Origin: a virus
DNA: 28,440 nt
Direction: 5' to 3' (one strand)
IMG/VR virus record: IMGVR_UViG_3300021425_000132
Span: 1 to 28,440 of that record
Within the stretch, counting starts at the first letter, position 1; the number at the start of each line of letters is the position of its first letter. The notes under the pieces are model-generated. The model was given only the letters and a program-made list of their open reading frames with translations. It had not been told where the DNA came from and made no database searches. The position numbers and the translations under genes are program-made. Shown here in pieces: positions 556-14,216 of this stretch.

Positions 556-1228
556 TGTTTGCCTCCTTCGCAAATGCGGTCAATGCCGCTACCACGGCCT
601 TATCGGCCACGAACGTCTTGGGTTTTTCCTCCGGCTTCATATCGCCATGCATACCTTGTTGGCCCATCTCGTCAAAGTGGTCATCAATCAACTCGGCCAG
701 CATCGCGATAGCAGCCCGAATCTTTTCGGCGCTTGCCTTGCTCATCCTGCGCCCTGCTTTTTCGGTCGTGTCCATATCATCCTCCACGCCGCGCAGGCGC
801 ACGGCCTCCCGATTGGCCGGAATGGCCACCATAGAAACTTCAAGCAACTCCATACCCGTGTGCGTCATCGGCTCACCGGCCTTGCTGCCGGGCCGACGAG
901 ACAGGCTTCTGAAGCCCACGCTCACCGTATTGAGCATCCCAGCTTCCACAAGCTCGCGGGCCATATTGCCCTTGCCGGTCGGCGCGAACTCGACGTCCAC
1001 TTCTAGGCCCTCGGGGCCAACCTCGACGCGACGCGCGCGGCCTAGGATGTCATCAATGGAGCCATAGCGGTGGCTGTCGAGGATGACAGGATTGGAGCGG
1101 TAAGCGTCCAGCTTCCAACCCGCCTGGTCGATCACCTCGTTCTGGCGATCCACAGCAGCAGTCGAGGCCCGGAAGGTGAAGATACCCTCCTGCCCCTGCC
1201 CAATATAGTCAGCCTTGACGCGAATCAT
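548..1228 (-). CDS. HK97-family prohead protease (peptidase S78)
   Basis: A 226-residue serine protease that matures the prohead by cutting the scaffold or delta domain from capsid subunits and then degrading itself. Family signs are the opening TFRASTAAVDRQNEVIDQ block, the catalytic histidine in DSHRYG (His53), the catalytic serine in VSVGFRS (Ser103) and the later ELLEVSMVAIPAN strand with an acidic residue. The C-terminal 75 residues are helical and charged, as in many proteases that carry a short assembly tail. The gene overlaps the portal-fusion stop upstream (ATG at 1228 against stop at 1209) and the capsid start downstream, so the three are translationally coupled in the order portal, protease, capsid. 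Length is normal for the family. Confidence 0.93.
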   Translation of the reverse strand: MIRVKADYIGQGQEGIFTFRASTAAVDRQNEVIDQAGWKLDAYRSNPVILDSHRYGSIDDILGRARRVEVGPEGLEVDVEFAPTGKGNMARELVEAGMLNTVSVGFRSLSRRPGSKAGEPMTHTGMELLEVSMVAIPANREAVRLRGVEDDMDTTEKAGRRMSKASAEKIRAAIAMLAELIDDHFDEMGQQGMHGDMKPEEKPKTFVADKAVVAALTAFAKEANNG

Positions 1229-3692
1229 TGAGCCACCCCTGTATCTGTGCCGCTATGTCTGACTGTAACACCCCCGCCGTGGACGTGTCATCCTCAACCA
1301 CATAGGTCATCGCGCACCGACAGTTAATCGTCTCCGCTGCACTCGCCTTGCCCCTGCCACCTGTCGGGTTGCCCGGGCTCTGGAACTCCACCCCACCCAC
1401 GGTAAACGATTCAGTCAGGCCGATAGGCTGCCGCTGGTAGCGACGATGCGCTGCCGCGTGGGTCTCGCGCTCTCGCCCATCAAAGCTCGCCAGCCATTGT
1501 TTCTTCACTCCCAGGCCGGTGGCCTCGGCTTCTTTCGCGCCCATCAGGCTACCCTCGGTGAGCGCCCCGATAGTCTCGGTGCGTGCGATGGTTTCCGCGC
1601 TGCTGCGGATGCGGTCGCCCATTACAGACTCGACACGCTCCATCAACGCCTCGACGCCCTCGCCATCCTGCACACCCTCAAGAAGGCTGGTTTTAAGCTG
1701 GTCCCAAGTGGTGTCGTTGACCTGCTCGGCGAACTTCTGCGCCCGGGCCTGCATCGCTGCGGCCACCTCGGGAGACTCCAGGTTAAACAGCGCCGTGTCT
1801 GCACGAAGCTCGCCCAGGGTAGCCACCGCGCCCAACTCCGCCGCCGTCTGTATCTGGTCAAGCAAGGCATCCGCGAAAAGTGTCTGCCAAAAAACCTCAT
1901 CCCAGATGGCATCGATATCCTGCTCGCTTTCCATCGCTTTTGTGGCCTGTTTCACCAAGCGGTCAGCAAGCTCCTCGCCCTGCTGAAGCATCAGCCGGGA
2001 CACCTCGCGCTGGAAACCAGCCATCAGCCGGTCAGCACGCCGCCCAAACTCCTCGTAAGCCTGCTTGTGCTCGACAGAACCCAACTCGATAGGCTTCACC
2101 ATCTGCTTGATGGCGCGCTGCTCGCGCTCGGCTTCGATGCGCTCCATCGCAGGCACCATCTCCTCTGCCCATCGCCGACCGGCATCGCCACCCCACAGAA
2201 GCCACGCGACATAGCCGGGCGTCTCCTTGCCGGGCTTATCCCAGCCGGGCTTCTTGTCGCTTTCGTGCCGCGCAAACCAAGCACGCATCCGGCGTATCTT
2301 GTCCGGTGGCACGTCGCGACGCGCTGCGATGTTGCGAGCCTCGGCCACAGTCTTAGGCTGTAAGCCATCACCACCGCGCCCCTCTTCGTACAGACGTAGG
2401 CCCTTGCGGGCTGCATCCCTCACCGCCTGAGGGGCGATGAAGCGCAAGCCGGGATATTCGGCATACTTTGCGCCCTGCTGCTGGTCAACAACGTCTGTTG
2501 TGCCGGGAATGCTTGCGGGCTGGTTGCCCCACTCCCAGCCCTCGCCATCGTTCAAGAATTGCGGGGCAAGCTCGGACAGGATGCGATTGAGTGGCACCCC
2601 AATAGAGGCCCAGACCTTCGCCTGCTCGGCCGTCTCCTTCATATCGCTTTGCAGGGCCAGCACGCCGCTCAAGTCGAACGATACCCGCTCGGCCTCGCCC
2701 TTGAACATCGGCACCAGTTGCTCTGTGACCTCCTGGGCCAAGAAGTCAGCCAAAGGAATCATTGTGTCTGTCCAAAAGCCCTTGTGTGCCTGCTGAACGT
2801 TGTTGTAGGTGCTGCCCTCCTGGTCACCAATCAACTCAGGCGGCACACCGTAGACCATGCAAGCGTCGGTGCGTGTCCATTTCATCAGCTCGATAAACTG
2901 CGCATCGCGAGGTGAGATGCCCATCGGCGTGAAGGTCGCAGCCTGCCCAAGCACCGCGAGCCTGTGCGCCTTGTCAACGCCCTTGAAACGCTTTTCGAGC
3001 ATATCGCGCAGGGCCTCTACCTGGTCGCGCGCCCACGTCGAATCCTTGTCGGCTGGCGTCACCACCCCGGCCAACTGCACCCCGTTGCTGAACACATTGT
3101 GATTCGACCGCAGGGCAGCGTGGCCAGTGTCCAGCGCGAGCCTGGTCGCAGCGATGGGAGATAGGCCCTCGAACTCATCGATGGGATTGGGATTGCGAAA
3201 CCAGATGACCTCACTGGGCCGGAAGGCCAGCCGCTGATTGTTCCACTCGTATATCCAGCCGCCCAAGTAGTTGTCCACGTCGGGCACCAGACGCATCCGA
3301 TCAGGCCGTGCCCACCAGATTTCACGCGGGACACCTTCGCCATCTTCGCCGCGCTCAAGCACCCAGTACGCTTCACCCCACAGGTCGAGCGCCATCACGG
3401 TCATTTGCCAGAGGCGGTTGGTCGTCCACCAAGGATTAACGGTGCGCAGCAGGTCGTACAGCTGCCCCTCGGCCACGTCTTGCCCGTCACGATGCAGCAG
3501 CAAAGGCAGACCAGCGAGCGACCGCGCCCGCAGGTTCACACAGGCATACACCGCCGATGAGGTCGCGAGGTAATTCCCGTATACCTCTGGGCTCCACCTT
3601 TCGGGATCGGTGCCAAATGCGATGTCCGCAGGCTCAATGACCGCAGGGCCAAGCCTGAATATCTTGCTTACGAGTCGCTGTAAGTAATTCAT
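1209..3692 (-). CDS. Portal protein fused to a middle module and a Mu gpF-like minor head domain
   Basis: A long protein of 827 residues. Residues 1 to about 380 are an HK97-family portal, the dodecameric ring through which DNA enters and leaves; the NYLATSSAVYACVNLRA and VYGVPPELIGD blocks are typical. About residues 422-513 form a separate module with RRMRAWFARHESDKK and VAWLLWGGDAGRRWA, a block I know from other phage structural proteins but cannot assign a function. About residues 700-800 match the Mu gpF/SPP1 gp7 head-morphogenesis family: ARTETIGALTEG, then W..SFDGRERETHAAAH, then NCRC. I chose the ATG at 3692 (MNYLQRL). The open frame continues upstream to 3848, but through a terminator-like hairpin. 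The Shine-Dalgarno (AGGTGG) is rather distant. Portal and gpF are usually separate neighbouring genes, so the fusion is notable. Confidence 0.92.
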   Translation of the reverse strand: MNYLQRLVSKIFRLGPAVIEPADIAFGTDPERWSPEVYGNYLATSSAVYACVNLRARSLAGLPLLLHRDGQDVAEGQLYDLLRTVNPWWTTNRLWQMTVMALDLWGEAYWVLERGEDGEGVPREIWWARPDRMRLVPDVDNYLGGWIYEWNNQRLAFRPSEVIWFRNPNPIDEFEGLSPIAATRLALDTGHAALRSNHNVFSNGVQLAGVVTPADKDSTWARDQVEALRDMLEKRFKGVDKAHRLAVLGQAATFTPMGISPRDAQFIELMKWTRTDACMVYGVPPELIGDQEGSTYNNVQQAHKGFWTDTMIPLADFLAQEVTEQLVPMFKGEAERVSFDLSGVLALQSDMKETAEQAKVWASIGVPLNRILSELAPQFLNDGEGWEWGNQPASIPGTTDVVDQQQGAKYAEYPGLRFIAPQAVRDAARKGLRLYEEGRGGDGLQPKTVAEARNIAARRDVPPDKIRRMRAWFARHESDKKPGWDKPGKETPGYVAWLLWGGDAGRRWAEEMVPAMERIEAEREQRAIKQMVKPIELGSVEHKQAYEEFGRRADRLMAGFQREVSRLMLQQGEELADRLVKQATKAMESEQDIDAIWDEVFWQTLFADALLDQIQTAAELGAVATLGELRADTALFNLESPEVAAAMQARAQKFAEQVNDTTWDQLKTSLLEGVQDGEGVEALMERVESVMGDRIRSSAETIARTETIGALTEGSLMGAKEAEATGLGVKKQWLASFDGRERETHAAAHRRYQRQPIGLTESFTVGGVEFQSPGNPTGGRGKASAAETINCRCAMTYVVEDDTSTAGVLQSDIAAQIQGWLNDSRQG

Positions 3693-3857
3693 ACGGCCAG
3701 CATACCACCTGCCCAAACGCAACAAAACCCCAGGGGTGAGCCTGGGGTCTGCTGGTGCCGAGGTGTGAAGCATCGGCGTGCTGTATCGGCAGCACCCCAC
3801 CGGAATCAAGCGGAGCCCGGAAGGGACAACCAAAGTACCACAGCCCACAAAAAGCCG
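3693..3857 (-). other. Non-coding gap with two hairpins between methyltransferase and portal genes
   Basis: These 165 bases between two minus-strand genes are the longest gap between same-strand genes in the window. They hold a hairpin at 3778-3795 (GTGCTG, six-base loop, CAGCAC) and a second, stronger one at 3727-3748 with a T-rich tail. No convincing short gene was seen, and no good promoter lies between the second hairpin and the portal start, only a weak TATGCT near 3700. The gap separates the packaging and modification genes from the head genes and may regulate head gene expression or contain a packaging site. Those roles are inference. Confidence 0.5.
3721..3748 (-). terminator. Intrinsic terminator-like hairpin upstream of the portal gene
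   Basis: On the minus strand ACCCCAGG pairs perfectly with CCTGGGGT around a six-base loop and is followed by TTTTGTT. This is the form of a factor-independent terminator. It lies after the methyltransferase stop (3858) and only about 35 bases before the portal ATG, so it may act as an attenuator that lowers read-through into the head genes. Confidence 0.6.
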
Positions 3858-10371: not shown

Positions 10372-10591
10372 AGATCTCCTCCAGATGCACACAGAGGCCC
10401 TCGACCTCGTACCCCTCCCATTGCAGCCACCGCACCAACTTTCTCACCGCGCCATCTTCAGTGCGTGCGTTGAGCGTGCGCGGATTCAACAACGCCTTCC
10501 CGCTCTCGTTATACGGCTGCACCCTGAAGGTCTTGAGCGGCTTCGGCATAGCCTCCAGAGTAGGCCGCCAGCACAGAATCTGCAACCTCAC
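10358..10591 (-). CDS. Hypothetical small early protein
   Basis: About 77 residues. The core KTFRVQPYNESGKALLNPRT then AVRKLVRWLQWEGYEVEGLCV looks like a small alpha/beta protein; no family recognised. The start is uncertain. GTG 10591 gives a GTGA overlap with the loader stop (10588), a spacing used elsewhere in this genome. ATG 10549 has GGAGG but only two bases away, and ATG 10621 has no ribosome site. The stop overlaps the MazG start. Confidence 0.58.
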   Translation of the reverse strand: MRLQILCWRPTLEAMPKPLKTFRVQPYNESGKALLNPRTLNARTEDGAVRKLVRWLQWEGYEVEGLCVHLEEICEGK

Positions 10592-11367
10592 CACCGTGCC
10601 GCTCCACGAAAGGATTCCCATTCCATAATGCAGATCGTCGAGTCACGGTCAATCAGCCGGTTAAGCGCCCTGTCTCCGATGTAACGAGCGAAGGCCTGCT
10701 TGCCTAGATTGCTGCTCAAGCAAACTGGCTTGCCCTTCTCGTAGCGGTCATTGATGACATCGTTGATCACACGCTTCTCTTTTTCGTCCATTTCCTGAAT
10801 CTCATCGATACAGAGGATGTCGACCGCAGCCAGCGCGCGAAACACGTCGGCCTCGGTCTGCGTGTTGGTGCGGCCCCAAGTGTCGCGAATGGCCCGGAAT
10901 ACCTTTGAGGCCGTGAGGAAGATGGCGGATTTACCCTCGCGCAGAGCCTGAAGCGTGACCGCCGACAGAACGTGGGTCTTACCCGTGCCCGTCCAGCCGA
11001 TCAGAACCAAGTTCTTGCCATCCCTTATCGTCGCTCCGAGGTCTTGCGTATAGGCCTCAATCTGCCCCATAACGCGCTCGCTATTCGTACATCCGGCCTT
11101 GAATCCGGCAATCGTACAGTGCTCGTAAGCCGAAGAAATCCCAGAGTCACCAAGCACCTCGCGCCACCGTTGCATGGCCTCGTCACGCAAGGATGCCTCG
11201 AATACCTCGTTTTGCTTGCGATAAGCCTCCTCAGAGCACGCCGGACAGCTTGTCCATGTCCTGGTCAAGTAAAGCCTCGAAACAAACTTGCCGTGCTTCT
11301 GACAGGTTGCGTCTTTTTTCTTCTCGCCCTTTTCAAGGGGCACCAACAACTCGCCGATCTTTTGCAT
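10588..11367 (-). CDS. DnaC-like replicative helicase loader (AAA+ ATPase)
   Basis: A 259-residue AAA+ ATPase of the DnaC/IstB-like class. It carries an N-terminal zinc ribbon (TCQKHG then WTSCPACSEEA, residues 20-55), Walker A GWTGTGKT, Walker B ILCIDEIQEMDE and an arginine-rich sensor region near GDRALNRLIDRDST. Such proteins load the host replicative helicase onto origin DNA opened by the initiator. ATG 11367 follows GAGGTG and lies next to the initiator stop (11376). No phage helicase or polymerase gene was seen, so this phage should recruit the host replisome, as lambda O and P do. Confidence 0.92.
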   Translation of the reverse strand: MQKIGELLVPLEKGEKKKDATCQKHGKFVSRLYLTRTWTSCPACSEEAYRKQNEVFEASLRDEAMQRWREVLGDSGISSAYEHCTIAGFKAGCTNSERVMGQIEAYTQDLGATIRDGKNLVLIGWTGTGKTHVLSAVTLQALREGKSAIFLTASKVFRAIRDTWGRTNTQTEADVFRALAAVDILCIDEIQEMDEKEKRVINDVINDRYEKGKPVCLSSNLGKQAFARYIGDRALNRLIDRDSTICIMEWESFRGAARW

Positions 11368-11375
11368 TTCACACC

Positions 11376-12308
11376 TCACGCTAACTCTTCTTTCGAACGG
11401 TCGTAGACTCTCTCGTACCGCTCTTTTTGCCTTCTCACATAATCCTTGCCGTAGAAATACTCCGCAGCAGATCCGGCTACGAACTCCTCGCCATCGTGGC
11501 TGCGGTAGTCCTGTTTTGACAAGTCCTCTGGCTCCCAACCACCGCGCTTCGGCTTGTCTTTGTCGAGCCAGTCAGCCCTGAACCCACGCCACCCACGTTC
11601 AGCGCAAATCCTGACCGCCTCAGCAGGCGAAATACCCGCCTTCGATGCCTCGTTGGTCATACCAGACCAGGCCGTCTGTGTCAGCGGGTTCCTGCCGCGC
11701 ACACGCAACCAGTCGCGCCAGACGGTCTCGTCACAGTCAGCCGGTCGCTCAATCGTCGTTGTTTTTTTCACCTTCTGAGAGGGAGAATTATGCGGCTTGT
11801 CCGCTGCGCTTTGCGCCTCTATTCTCTTCTCTTCTTTTCTATTCTTATCTATTCTATTCTCTTCTAGGGGCAAATTTACAGGCTCTAAACCCGCATCATT
11901 GCTAGACGCGACACTACACGGACGCGACACCGACACTACATCGGCACTACCTTGACGCGACACCGACACTACACCGGCGCTACCTGAACGCGACTTCGGC
12001 GCTACACTGGCACTACCTCGACGCGACTTCGGCGCTACCTCGACGCTGCTTTCCGGAAGTGAAGCAGTCACGTGTGAGCCATCAATCTGAAGGTCAATTA
12101 AGCCAGATTGCTGGACGGCCTCAAGGCTCCTACGAACACCATCGCGAGTAAGGCTCATCCAGCTGGCCAACTGGGGAATGGTTGCCGTAAGCACCGGCTG
12201 CCTCATAAGCAACTCATAAAGGCCATGAAAAACGGCCCGCGCATTTTGTGGCATCCCACAATATCCTGCGTCCTGGAGTCGATATGGCTCCTTATACCAA
12301 GGCTTCAC
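11376..12308 (-). CDS. Replication initiator (lambda O-like) with winged-helix N-terminus
   Basis: A 310-residue protein. Residues 1-75 form a winged helix (NARAVFHGLYELLMRQPV, then SLTRDGVRRSLEAVQQSGL) suited to origin binding. Residues about 80-135 are a low-complexity stretch encoded by the iteron array (units with APKSRRGSAS and VVSVSRQGSAD). A charged linker (NRIDKNRKEEKRIEAQ) is encoded by the AT-rich tract. The C-terminal 130 residues (DETVWRDWLRVRGRN...) form a helical domain expected to contact the loader. The start is GTG 12308, with GAGGAGG upstream, overlapping the Cro-like stop. Architecture and gene order (regulator, initiator, loader) match lambda cro-O-P, though there is no clear sequence match to O. 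Confidence 0.85.
   Translation of the reverse strand: MKPWYKEPYRLQDAGYCGMPQNARAVFHGLYELLMRQPVLTATIPQLASWMSLTRDGVRRSLEAVQQSGLIDLQIDGSHVTASLPESSVEVAPKSRRGSASVAPKSRSGSAGVVSVSRQGSADVVSVSRPCSVASSNDAGLEPVNLPLEENRIDKNRKEEKRIEAQSAADKPHNSPSQKVKKTTTIERPADCDETVWRDWLRVRGRNPLTQTAWSGMTNEASKAGISPAEAVRICAERGWRGFRADWLDKDKPKRGGWEPEDLSKQDYRSHDGEEFVAGSAAEYFYGKDYVRRQKERYERVYDRSKEELA
11815..11880 (-). other. AT-rich, strand-asymmetric tract (probable origin-unwinding element)
   Basis: Inside the initiator gene, just downstream of the iterons in gene direction, the plus strand is almost all pyrimidine with repeated CTATTCT and AAATTTA. The stretch is clearly AT-richer than its surroundings. Phage lambda has the same order: iterons, then an AT-rich region inside gene O. 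Unwinding here is inferred. Confidence 0.6.
11921..12052 (-). repeat. Iteron array within the initiator gene (candidate replication origin)
   Basis: About twelve 11-base units (plus-strand forms such as GACGCGACACC, GACACTACATC, GGCGCTACCTC) run head to tail, grouped in 33-base higher-order repeats: copies of GACGCGAC begin at 11921, 11954, 11987 and 12020, with a shorter step to 12042 and a partial unit at 11905. An 11-base step keeps each unit on about the same face of the helix. Because 33 is a multiple of three, the protein carries 11-residue repeats. Confidence 0.75.
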
Positions 12309-12553
12309 GATGCCTCCTCGGTAAATCTAGTGCTGAAGATAGCCGCCTGAATCTTCTCAAGCTGGTGGGTTCCTTCAACCAGTTTGTGTATGCGATACGC
12401 ATAACGGCCTGGGAAAACACCCCGGCGAATCCACTGGGACACCGCCGGAGCATTGAGCCCAAACATCCGCGCCAGCTTCGCCTTATTCCCTGCCGCCCGC
12501 GCCGCATCCTCGATCACCTGAATCAAGTAAGTACGTGCTTCGTTTGTCGTCAT
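12305..12553 (-). CDS. Cro/YdaS-like helix-turn-helix regulator
   Basis: An 82-residue protein with a clear helix-turn-helix (about residues 24-43, KAKLARMFGLNAPAVSQWIR) resembling the YdaS/Cro family, then GVFPGRYAYRIHKLVEG, where the PGRYAY block is typical. It most likely binds the palindrome at 12598-12612 and controls both divergent promoters, including its own. The start is ATG 12553, with GGAGG upstream; the ATG at 12577 would lie before the predicted transcription start. It is the first gene of the leftward operon and overlaps the initiator gene start. No CI-type repressor or integrase is nearby, so it probably tunes early expression. Confidence 0.85.
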   Translation of the reverse strand: MTTNEARTYLIQVIEDAARAAGNKAKLARMFGLNAPAVSQWIRRGVFPGRYAYRIHKLVEGTHQLEKIQAAIFSTRFTEEAS

Positions 12554-12572
12554 TGTTTCCTCCTGTGTAAAC

Positions 12573-12602
12573 ATCATACCCCACCCTTTTCTTGTTTGTA
12601 AA
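12573..12602 (-). promoter_or_regulatory. Leftward early promoter
   Basis: Minus strand: -35 TTTACA (12602-12597), 18-base spacer, -10 TATGAT (12578-12573). The predicted start lies near 12566, giving a very short leader that still contains the GGAGG of the regulator gene. The -35 overlaps the palindromic operator. Confidence 0.68.
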
Positions 12603-12612
12603 TACTATTTAC
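12598..12612. promoter_or_regulatory. Perfect palindromic operator in the divergent promoter region
   Basis: GTAAATA-C-TATTTAC is a perfect 15-base inverted repeat. It covers most of the leftward -35 box and the first bases of the rightward -35 box, so one bound regulator dimer could block both promoters. The half-site GTAAATAC recurs at 9695-9702, close to the TATAAT of promoter cassette A. Confidence 0.68.
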
Positions 12613-12636
12613 TTTTTTGTTCGTCTGTGATGTAAT
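12608..12636 (+). promoter_or_regulatory. Rightward early promoter
   Basis: Plus strand: -35 TTTACT (12608-12613), 17-base spacer, -10 TGTAAT (12631-12636). Predicted transcription start is near 12643, about 37 bases before the ERF gene ATG at 12680. It overlaps the operator at its left end. Confidence 0.6.
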
Positions 12637-12679
12637 TGACCTTGCTACGGGAGAACTCAATACAGAAAGGACTATTCTC

Positions 12680-13276
12680 ATGAGTCACGTTTACGCTGCC
12701 TTCGTGAAGGCACAGCGGGCCTTTGGCCCGGCCCTGAAGGCGCACACCAATCCTGTCTACCGCTCGAAGTATGCCGACCTGTCGGCCTGCATCGAGGCCG
12801 TGATTGACGGGCTGCACGAAGCAGGCTTCGCCCTGGTTCAGCGCACCGAAGAGCGCGAGGGCGGTGCGGTCGTCGAGACGGTCTTTCTCCACGAGTCTGG
12901 CGAGGAGATTTCAGGCGGTAAGCTGTTCGTGCCAGCGACGAAACCAGACGCACACGGGATGGGGAGCGCGCTCACCTATGCCCGCCGGTACTCGCTGCTT
13001 GCGGCCTGCGGCTTGGCCCCAGAGGACGATGACGCGAACAAGGCCACTGGGCAGGGCAAGAGCGAGCCTCGGCAAGCTGCCCCCACCCGTCAGCCATCTG
13101 CGGCACCACAGGGCACCGTGACAGCCGCACAGGCCGAAGAGATCGAGGCGCTGCTGATCCAGGTCGGTGGGGATCAGGTCAAGCTGCTTGATCACCTCGG
13201 CGTCTCGAAGTATGCCGATATCCCAGCGGCCTCGTATGACCGCGTGATCGCCAGCTTGCGGAAGAAGGTGAAGTGA
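12680..13276 (+). CDS. erf: ERF-family single-strand annealing protein
   Basis: A 198-residue recombinase of the ERF superfamily, which anneals complementary single strands during phage recombination. Family signs are VYAAFVKAQRAF, NPVYRSKYADLSACIEAV and HGMGSALTYARRYSLLAACGL. A linker rich in Ala, Pro and Gln (about 125-155) leads to a C-terminal domain of unknown role. The ATG at 12680 follows AGAAAGGA and is the first good start after the rightward promoter; the open frame starting with TTG at 12617 would include promoter DNA. It overlaps the exonuclease gene by TGATG, and the two act as an exonuclease-annealase pair. Confidence 0.94.
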   Translation: MSHVYAAFVKAQRAFGPALKAHTNPVYRSKYADLSACIEAVIDGLHEAGFALVQRTEEREGGAVVETVFLHESGEEISGGKLFVPATKPDAHGMGSALTYARRYSLLAACGLAPEDDDANKATGQGKSEPRQAAPTRQPSAAPQGTVTAAQAEEIEALLIQVGGDQVKLLDHLGVSKYADIPAASYDRVIASLRKKVK

Positions 13277-13857
13277 TGCCGGAGGTGCCCAACCTGGAAC
13301 AGGGCACACCAGAATGGTTGGAGTTCCGGCGCTGTCTGCGGATGGCGTCGGAGACTCCCGGCCTTCTGGGGCTCAACAAATACACCACGCCCGAGCGCAC
13401 CATCGTGAACAAGGTGAGGTGCATCGAGACACCGCAGACGCCAGCGATGGCCCACGGGCACGAACAGGAGCCCCTCGCGAGGGCCTGGTACAACGAGGCC
13501 TTCGGTGAATTGATGCGGCCTGCGGTGTGGCAACTTGGGCAGTACGGGGCCTCGCTGGATGGCATCAATCTTGATGAGGATCGCATCCTTGAGATCAAGT
13601 CTCCCTGGAAAAACCCACGGGAGAGCGAGCGGTGGGTGCAGGCCGAGCAGGGCAAATGGACAGAGGCCGATTATGCTCAGGTGCAGCATCAACTGTACGT
13701 GACCGAGGCAAAGGCCGCCGATCTCGTCATCTGGGATTGGACGAGCGAGGAAGGCCTCGTGATAGAGATCCTGCCAGACCTCGCGTATTGGCATGTTATT
13801 TGGCGTGTCTGGAATCGTTATGAAAAGGAGTTGTCAGAATGTTCAATCAAGCTGTGA
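13276..13857 (+). CDS. YqaJ-type (lambda exonuclease-like) recombination nuclease
   Basis: A 193-residue member of the PD-(D/E)XK nuclease superfamily. It resects double-strand ends from 5' to 3' and hands the single strand to the ERF annealase. Motifs: QGTPEWLEFRR near the start, GHEQEPLARAWY, SLDGI (Asp95), LEIKSPWK (Glu106, Lys108) and VQHQLYVTEA. ATG 13276 overlaps the ERF stop as TGATG. The GTG at 13273 is possible but not needed. The SSB gene begins 19 bases before its end. Its small size is usual for YqaJ-like phage nucleases. Confidence 0.93.
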   Translation: MPEVPNLEQGTPEWLEFRRCLRMASETPGLLGLNKYTTPERTIVNKVRCIETPQTPAMAHGHEQEPLARAWYNEAFGELMRPAVWQLGQYGASLDGINLDEDRILEIKSPWKNPRESERWVQAEQGKWTEADYAQVQHQLYVTEAKAADLVIWDWTSEEGLVIEILPDLAYWHVIWRVWNRYEKELSECSIKL

Positions 13858-14216
13858 TCGTTGGTCGGTTGGGGCAAGACCCAGAACTGCGCACGATGCG
13901 ATCAGGTGAGGCCGTGATCAATGTCACAGTGGCCACCACCTCGGGGTACACCGACCGCACCAGCGGCGAAAAGAAGGAGTCTACGGAATGGCATCGGGTC
14001 GTTGCTTACGGGCCCGTGGCCGAGGCCATCGCGAGGCTTGCCCGCAAGGGCACCCTGATGTTGTTCGAGGGCTCGATGCACACCCGCGAATACGTGGACA
14101 AGCAGGGCCTCACGAAGAAGTCCACCGAACTGAAGGCGCGTGTGTCTCGCGTTCTGGCTGGTGGGCGGAATGAGGGGCACTCGGGATTGGCGAGCGAGGA
14201 AGAGATCGACTTCTGA
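13839..14216 (+). CDS. ssb: Single-stranded DNA-binding protein
   Basis: A 125-residue SSB of the bacterial type. The OB fold is clear (FNQAVIVGRLGQDPELRTM, TEWHRVVAYGPVAEAIARL, KGTLMLFEGSMHTREYVD), and the C-terminus ends in the acidic tip SEEEIDF that normally docks partner proteins. It covers ssDNA in replication and recombination. ATG 13839 has AAGGAG upstream and overlaps the exonuclease gene end. It is the last gene of the rightward operon, followed by a strong terminator. Confidence 0.95.
   Translation: MFNQAVIVGRLGQDPELRTMRSGEAVINVTVATTSGYTDRTSGEKKESTEWHRVVAYGPVAEAIARLARKGTLMLFEGSMHTREYVDKQGLTKKSTELKARVSRVLAGGRNEGHSGLASEEEIDF

Follow-up and report, generated by a model that had tools for sequence, protein, structure and literature searches.

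The stretch analysed here (hereafter the window) very probably contains a phage replication origin embedded in the gene for the initiator protein. By analogy, this origin most likely works like lambda ori, with iterons that span a single helical turn and are non-palindromic and arranged head to tail. The window is an entire IMG/VR record of 28,440 bases, representing a 28-kb fragment or incomplete genome. The direct observations, from which we infer initiator binding, melting, helicase loading and origin activity, are the iteron array, a constraint on it at the DNA level, a neighbouring purine tract, the surrounding genes, and relatives that share this layout.

Initiator gene, iteron array and purine tract

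The initiator gene (11376..12308, minus strand; 310 aa, GTG start) was recognised by its match to PHROG 678 'replication initiation O-like' (E 3.9e-21), which spans residues 41-308, and it also matched the PHROG 6451 primosomal protein (E 2.4e-12); searches of Pfam and NCBIfam, RepA_N and Rep_3 included, gave no match at E 0.01. AlphaFold2 predicted a winged-helix N-terminal domain at about residues 13-85 (12054..12272, minus strand), with good confidence for residues 1-90 (mean pLDDT 80.6) and the element order H-E-H-H-E-E. Against the PDB, the top matches of this domain model include the winged helices of CodY, MarR and ArsR (TM ≤0.64 on the query), and the full-length model also matched the initiator structure 4pt7. 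Two alignments delimited a conserved C-terminal domain that is common to relatives (residues 186-252; 11553..11753, minus strand). Residues 88-186 were modelled mostly with low confidence and are exactly where the DNA repeats fall; the iterons sit within the initiator gene between its N- and C-terminal domains, a lambda-type arrangement.

The order on the minus strand is a Cro/YdaS-like gene, the O-like initiator gene and a DnaC-like loader gene. Specifically, the upstream regulator gene (12305..12577, minus strand; Pfam YdaS_toxin E 2e-7, P22_Cro E 4e-5) overlaps the initiator start with its end as GTGA. The helicase loader gene (10588..11367, minus strand; PHROG 50, E 1.5e-48) encodes an IstB/DnaA-type ATPase that matched PRK07952 DnaC at E 5.8e-31, below the curated cut-off; its predicted start is the ATG at 11367 in a frame that is open to 11538. 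The position of such a gene after the initiator gene is again lambda-type, here with a DnaC-like product. A sigma-70-like promoter match (12573..12602, minus strand; TTTACA-18-TATGAT, 10/12), in itself weak evidence, is directed leftward through the array. Rfam and tRNA searches returned no match. Elsewhere in the window there are head, tail and recombination genes of phage type: a divergent recombination operon (12617-14216, plus strand; Erf-like annealing protein, YqaJ exonuclease, SSB) adjoins the replication operon, and a very long open frame of 879 aa (1209-3848, minus strand), judged from its translation only, has a portal-like part followed by a head-morphogenesis-like part and may be a fusion.

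The array comprises 13 head-to-tail 11-bp iterons (11907..12049, minus strand) with the coding-strand consensus GT(A/C)GYGYCGNN, read in all three frames. It runs from 12049 to 11907 in strict register, wholly within the open frame 11376-12308(-), and its first unit is the weakest. In coding-strand order, units 1-7 are GCAGCGTCGAG, GTAGCGCCGAA, GTCGCGTCGAG, GTAGTGCCAGT, GTAGCGCCGAA, GTCGCGTTCAG and GTAGCGCCGGT, and units 8-13 are GTAGTGTCGGT, GTCGCGTCAAG, GTAGTGCCGAT, GTAGTGTCGGT, GTCGCGTCCGT and GTAGTGTCGCG. The window contains 13 occurrences of the motif GTMGYGYCG, where 3 would be expected; 8 of them lie in the array and 5 are scattered singletons. No comparable periodic stretch exists elsewhere in the window (best 0.39, compared to 0.64). 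No inverted repeat was found in the array, nor 18-bp inverted-repeat iterons at 20-24 bp steps; DnaA boxes (TTWTNCAMA) are absent from 11000-13000, and IHF consensus sites are absent near the array. The combination of a Rep_3 domain with DnaA boxes by the iterons, which marks Rep_3-type iteron plasmids, was likewise not found.

A 40-bp spacer (11867..11906, minus strand) separates the iterons from a C-free, purine-rich and A+T-rich tract of 5-bp AGAAN-like units (11816..11866, minus strand; 51 bases; TRF period 5/15), which is a candidate DNA unwinding element. A 49-nt stretch of this tract contains 43 purines (88%) and no C on the coding strand and is 73% A+T, in a genome of 60% GC; its A+T content is exceeded in only 7 of 28,392 windows, and the 49-nt window with the strongest strand asymmetry in the record begins one to two bases from this stretch. 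An A+T-rich, strand-asymmetric tract downstream of iterons is also lambda-type, and the identical order was recovered in a lambda control, where the four annotated O-binding iterons lie inside O with an A-rich tract after them.

These results bear on several claims of the original prediction. The array and the AT-rich tract both lie where it had placed them (12049-11907 and 11866-11816), although it counted about twelve of the 11-base units where there are 13, and had the tract follow directly, when only the order holds and the spacer intervenes. The lambda-like order of iterons and then A+T-rich DNA inside the initiator gene was seen, in agreement with the lambda control, as was the difference of the unit from the 18-base lambda iteron. 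The proposed GC-skew check revealed no origin-like switch at the array, only a coding-strand change near 12.6 kb, and is uninformative as origin evidence. The central claim, a putative origin within the initiator gene, is supported as the best explanation by PHROG 678, the predicted winged helix, the DnaC-like neighbour, the lambda order and the layout of relatives.

Winged-helix folds are frequent in regulators and centromere-binding proteins, and iteron arrays of plasmids also act in copy control and partition, so the array might be an initiator binding site for autoregulation, incompatibility or segregation, with the true origin elsewhere. We consider this improbable, given that the array lies deep in the gene (about 260-400 bp into it), far from the promoter-like match, beside the purine/A+T tract and upstream of the loader gene, in a layout that recurs in relatives, and that no ParA/ParB gene was recognised among the neighbour genes.

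DNA-level constraint and the 33-bp period

The array matched itself at lags of 11, 22 and 33 with scores of 0.61, 0.63 and 0.75, respectively, values that none of 5,000 synonymous recodings (same protein, the phage's own codon usage) reached at any of these lags (recoding means 0.35, 0.36 and 0.51). Core columns 1, 2, 3, 4 and 6 showed zero differences within a frame class, and columns 1, 2, 4 and 6 each fall at every codon position; C/T was the only variation in columns 5 and 7, column 8 showed three pairwise differences, and columns 9-11 vary freely, with many differences. Core identity was 0.93-0.95 at every lag, with no fall over distance, and equal in all three frames. Among the four 33-nt copies compared, amino-acid-changing differences exceeded silent ones (pN 0.27, pS 0.15; pN/pS 1.9), a line of support limited to the window, as the relative L091 showed no such excess (pS 0.45, pN 0.31). 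Because recodings lose the periodicity, the columns are constrained and pN exceeds pS, the DNA core is what is kept: the periodicity of the array is a feature of the DNA and not of the protein, which follows. The repeats in the encoded protein vary freely and seem to be a by-product.

Eleven is not a multiple of three, so successive units are read in different frames, with three units per codon-frame cycle, and the TAG contained in the core is a stop in one of these frames. Nine units tolerate GTAG, and all of them have A in column 3; the other four, in which GTAG would make an in-frame TAG, are exactly those with C. The probability of this split is 1/715 with units taken as independent, which they are not fully, because such arrays likely grow by 33-bp duplication, which keeps the frame. 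Avoidance of the in-frame TAG accounts for the 33-base grouping, and the extra similarity at lag 3 is located in column 3 and the free columns. Among 11-bp arrays of relatives, a lag-3 excess is absent in L016, L043 and L002 and slight in L091. As core identity is flat over lags and relatives lack a clear lag-3 excess, the basic unit is 11 bp long, and the period of 33 bp is a by-product of coding constraints for which no separate function is needed. The 33-base supra-repeat had been proposed as a level of its own, which the exactly four GTCG units and TAG avoidance explain away; it had also been credited with preserving DNA and protein repeats at once, which is half right, since the DNA core is kept and the protein repeats are not.

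Many bacterial genomes contain 11-bp arrays of GTCGYGYC-type units, whose copies are often near-identical; such arrays would be the precedent for a functionless recent minisatellite arising from slippage. However, where the bacterial arrays are mostly near-identical, the copies here differ strongly and only outside the core, whose identity is constant with distance, and relatives have the same position and tract again despite unrelated sequences, making this explanation very unlikely. Slightly less likely still is an 11-residue protein linker repeat (VxxxSRxGSAx) with the DNA repeat as secondary: although 33 nt equals 11 codons and TRF reports a 33-bp period in the array, the 11-bp period is lost on synonymous recoding, the copies differ more in amino acids than silently, the core is conserved equally in three frames, and the copies in the protein are degenerate (VAPKSR to VVSVSR).

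Relatives sharing the C-terminal domain

In viral contigs, 567 candidate stretches encode a relative. An alignment of the C-terminal domain retrieved 80 environmental virus loci from such contigs, which add to 12 phage records. The N-terminal domains of these relatives differ (DUF1376, HTH_36, a weak Phage_rep_org_N match, or none named), and the order of Cro-like, initiator and DnaC-like or helicase genes recurs in them and in E. coli Rac. For 54 non-redundant linkers, the mean excess periodicity over synonymous recodings peaked at 11/22/33/44 and 7/14/21/28 bp, with smaller rises at 12 and 23 bp, compared to a flat excess for 217 other ORFs of these loci. At 11/22/33/44, 14/54 linkers, the window among them, passed a strict test, versus 1/217 other ORFs, and at 7/14 the numbers were 10/54 versus 0/217; the linkers are still partly related to one another, such that these counts are not independent events, and many relatives failed the strict test.

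The iteron sets are unrelated: GTAGYGYCG in the window, AACCCA in L091, CAACGNNCGTT in L016, L043 and others, GAACAGCAGGT in L002 (Pseudomonas phage KLEP17-4), and a 22-bp unit in L080. L091 and L002 share with the window the same C-terminal domain and 11-bp head-to-tail units in all frames, and differ from it in their iteron cores (AACCCA and GAACAGCAGGT, respectively) and N-terminal domains. The closest copy of the window's plan is L091, with nine 11-bp units ending AACCCA and then a purine tract, while the CAACGNNCGTT group has a 7-bp AACCAAT-type tract after its 11-bp units. This A/C-rich 7-bp repeat fills the last 30-70 nt before the C-terminal domain in L016, L022, L043, L054, L035 and other linkers, occupying the place of the window's 5-bp purine repeat. 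At 20-40 nt upstream of the C-terminal domain, the coding strand of relatives' linkers is A-rich and G-poor (mean A 0.5, G 0.09).

Within pairs such as L016/L022 and L050/L054, the two C-terminal domains are 98-100% identical in DNA and the tracts almost to the same degree, whereas the N-terminal domains are 46-49% identical (BLOSUM62) and the iterons differ too; identity breaks off between iterons and tract. Such a natural swap, although the several pairs come from one sequence set and represent one or a few events, is what one would expect of an N-terminal domain travelling with its own binding sites. For the window, peptide patterns identified no close relative of the whole initiator or of its N-terminal domain in viral or genome contigs, and the phage and plasmid matches of the initiator cover mainly the C-terminal domain; its own pairing of iterons and N-terminal domain therefore cannot be followed by comparison. 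A scan of viral and genome contigs for three adjacent iterons returned mostly unrelated GC-rich tandem repeats, with no C-domain gene recognised among the matches listed.

DUF1376 (PF07120, unknown function) is the N-terminal domain in many relatives with phased-repeat linkers (L016, L042, L071, L012 and E. coli ydaU, L225:6120-6977), and is probably an origin-binding domain of phage initiators. A different initiator-like gene in a 90-kb viral contig (L100:10788 onward) carries a mid-gene 11-bp array of TTCGTGCC/GTCGCGTC-like units and may be an independent instance of this layout. In the initiator gene of EBPR podovirus 1 (L009:2232-2393), the iterons are GTCCCGAAAACGGGAC-like palindromes spaced in steps of 22-34 bp, which brings them nearer to the lambda style.

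Known origins and a model of initiation

As in lambda ori, the iterons lie within the initiator gene and, read in gene direction, precede a strand-asymmetric A-rich tract (PMC5043065; PMC7466680), with a helicase-loader gene downstream and a cro-type gene upstream; the lambda A+T-rich region has its purines on one strand (PMC5043065). However, lambda has four 18-bp inverted-repeat iterons with start-to-start distances of 20-24 bp, bound by O dimers, as opposed to thirteen 11-bp non-palindromic head-to-tail units here, and the loader is DnaC-like and not P. As the units fall outside the lambda iteron definition of 18-bp inverted repeats, we regard the locus as a variant rather than a member of the lambda type.

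In E. coli K-12, the Rac prophage shares this gene order (ydaS-ydaT-ydaU-ydaV), and its ydaU linker contains GRTGTTCAA-like copies spaced 33, 12, 11 and 13 bp and then an A-rich tract, but the N-terminal domain is DUF1376 and the repeats are fewer and weaker, with only period 33 exceeding all 1,000 recodings. Rac has an active origin, oriJ (PMC3945230). RepA_N plasmids such as pSK41 also have the origin in the rep coding region, where the winged-helix N-terminal domain binds Rep boxes (PMC5703833), and the origin-encoded protein sequence of pSK41 is dispensable for replication (PMC5703833). The window resembles them in the predicted fold and in the putative origin within coding sequence; by sequence, the pSK41 protein belongs to another family, and its C-terminal domain binds DnaG primase, while the window has a DnaC-like loader gene next to the initiator gene.

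For the lambda-like origin that we favour, the winged-helix N-terminal domain of the initiator would bind adjacent 11-bp units along one helix face, one site per turn, and binding along the array would form a large nucleoprotein complex. This complex would strain and melt the downstream purine/A+T-rich tract, where the C-terminal domain would recruit the host helicase, together with the DnaC-like loader, to the opened strand. As in lambda ori, transcription from the upstream cro-like promoter may aid opening. A more specific and tentative proposal, to which we give roughly one chance in four, is that winged-helix protomers assemble singly into a head-to-tail polymer, with one protomer for each helical turn, on 11-bp half-site-like units, in place of separate dimers on palindromes, and that the adjoining tract of 5- or 7-bp units acts as a single-strand loading element that is sequence-specific.

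Three overlapping codes, for protein, initiator binding and melting, would share one stretch of DNA, in which the stop-codon constraint visibly shapes the candidate binding sites. The findings suggest a practical rule, whereby many phage origins could be read from the initiator gene as 11-bp-phased repeats plus a short-period tract, and they predict an origin-binding role for DUF1376. If protomers do polymerise as proposed, the same grammar would be general for a large group of phage initiators, DUF1376 proteins of 'unknown function' included.
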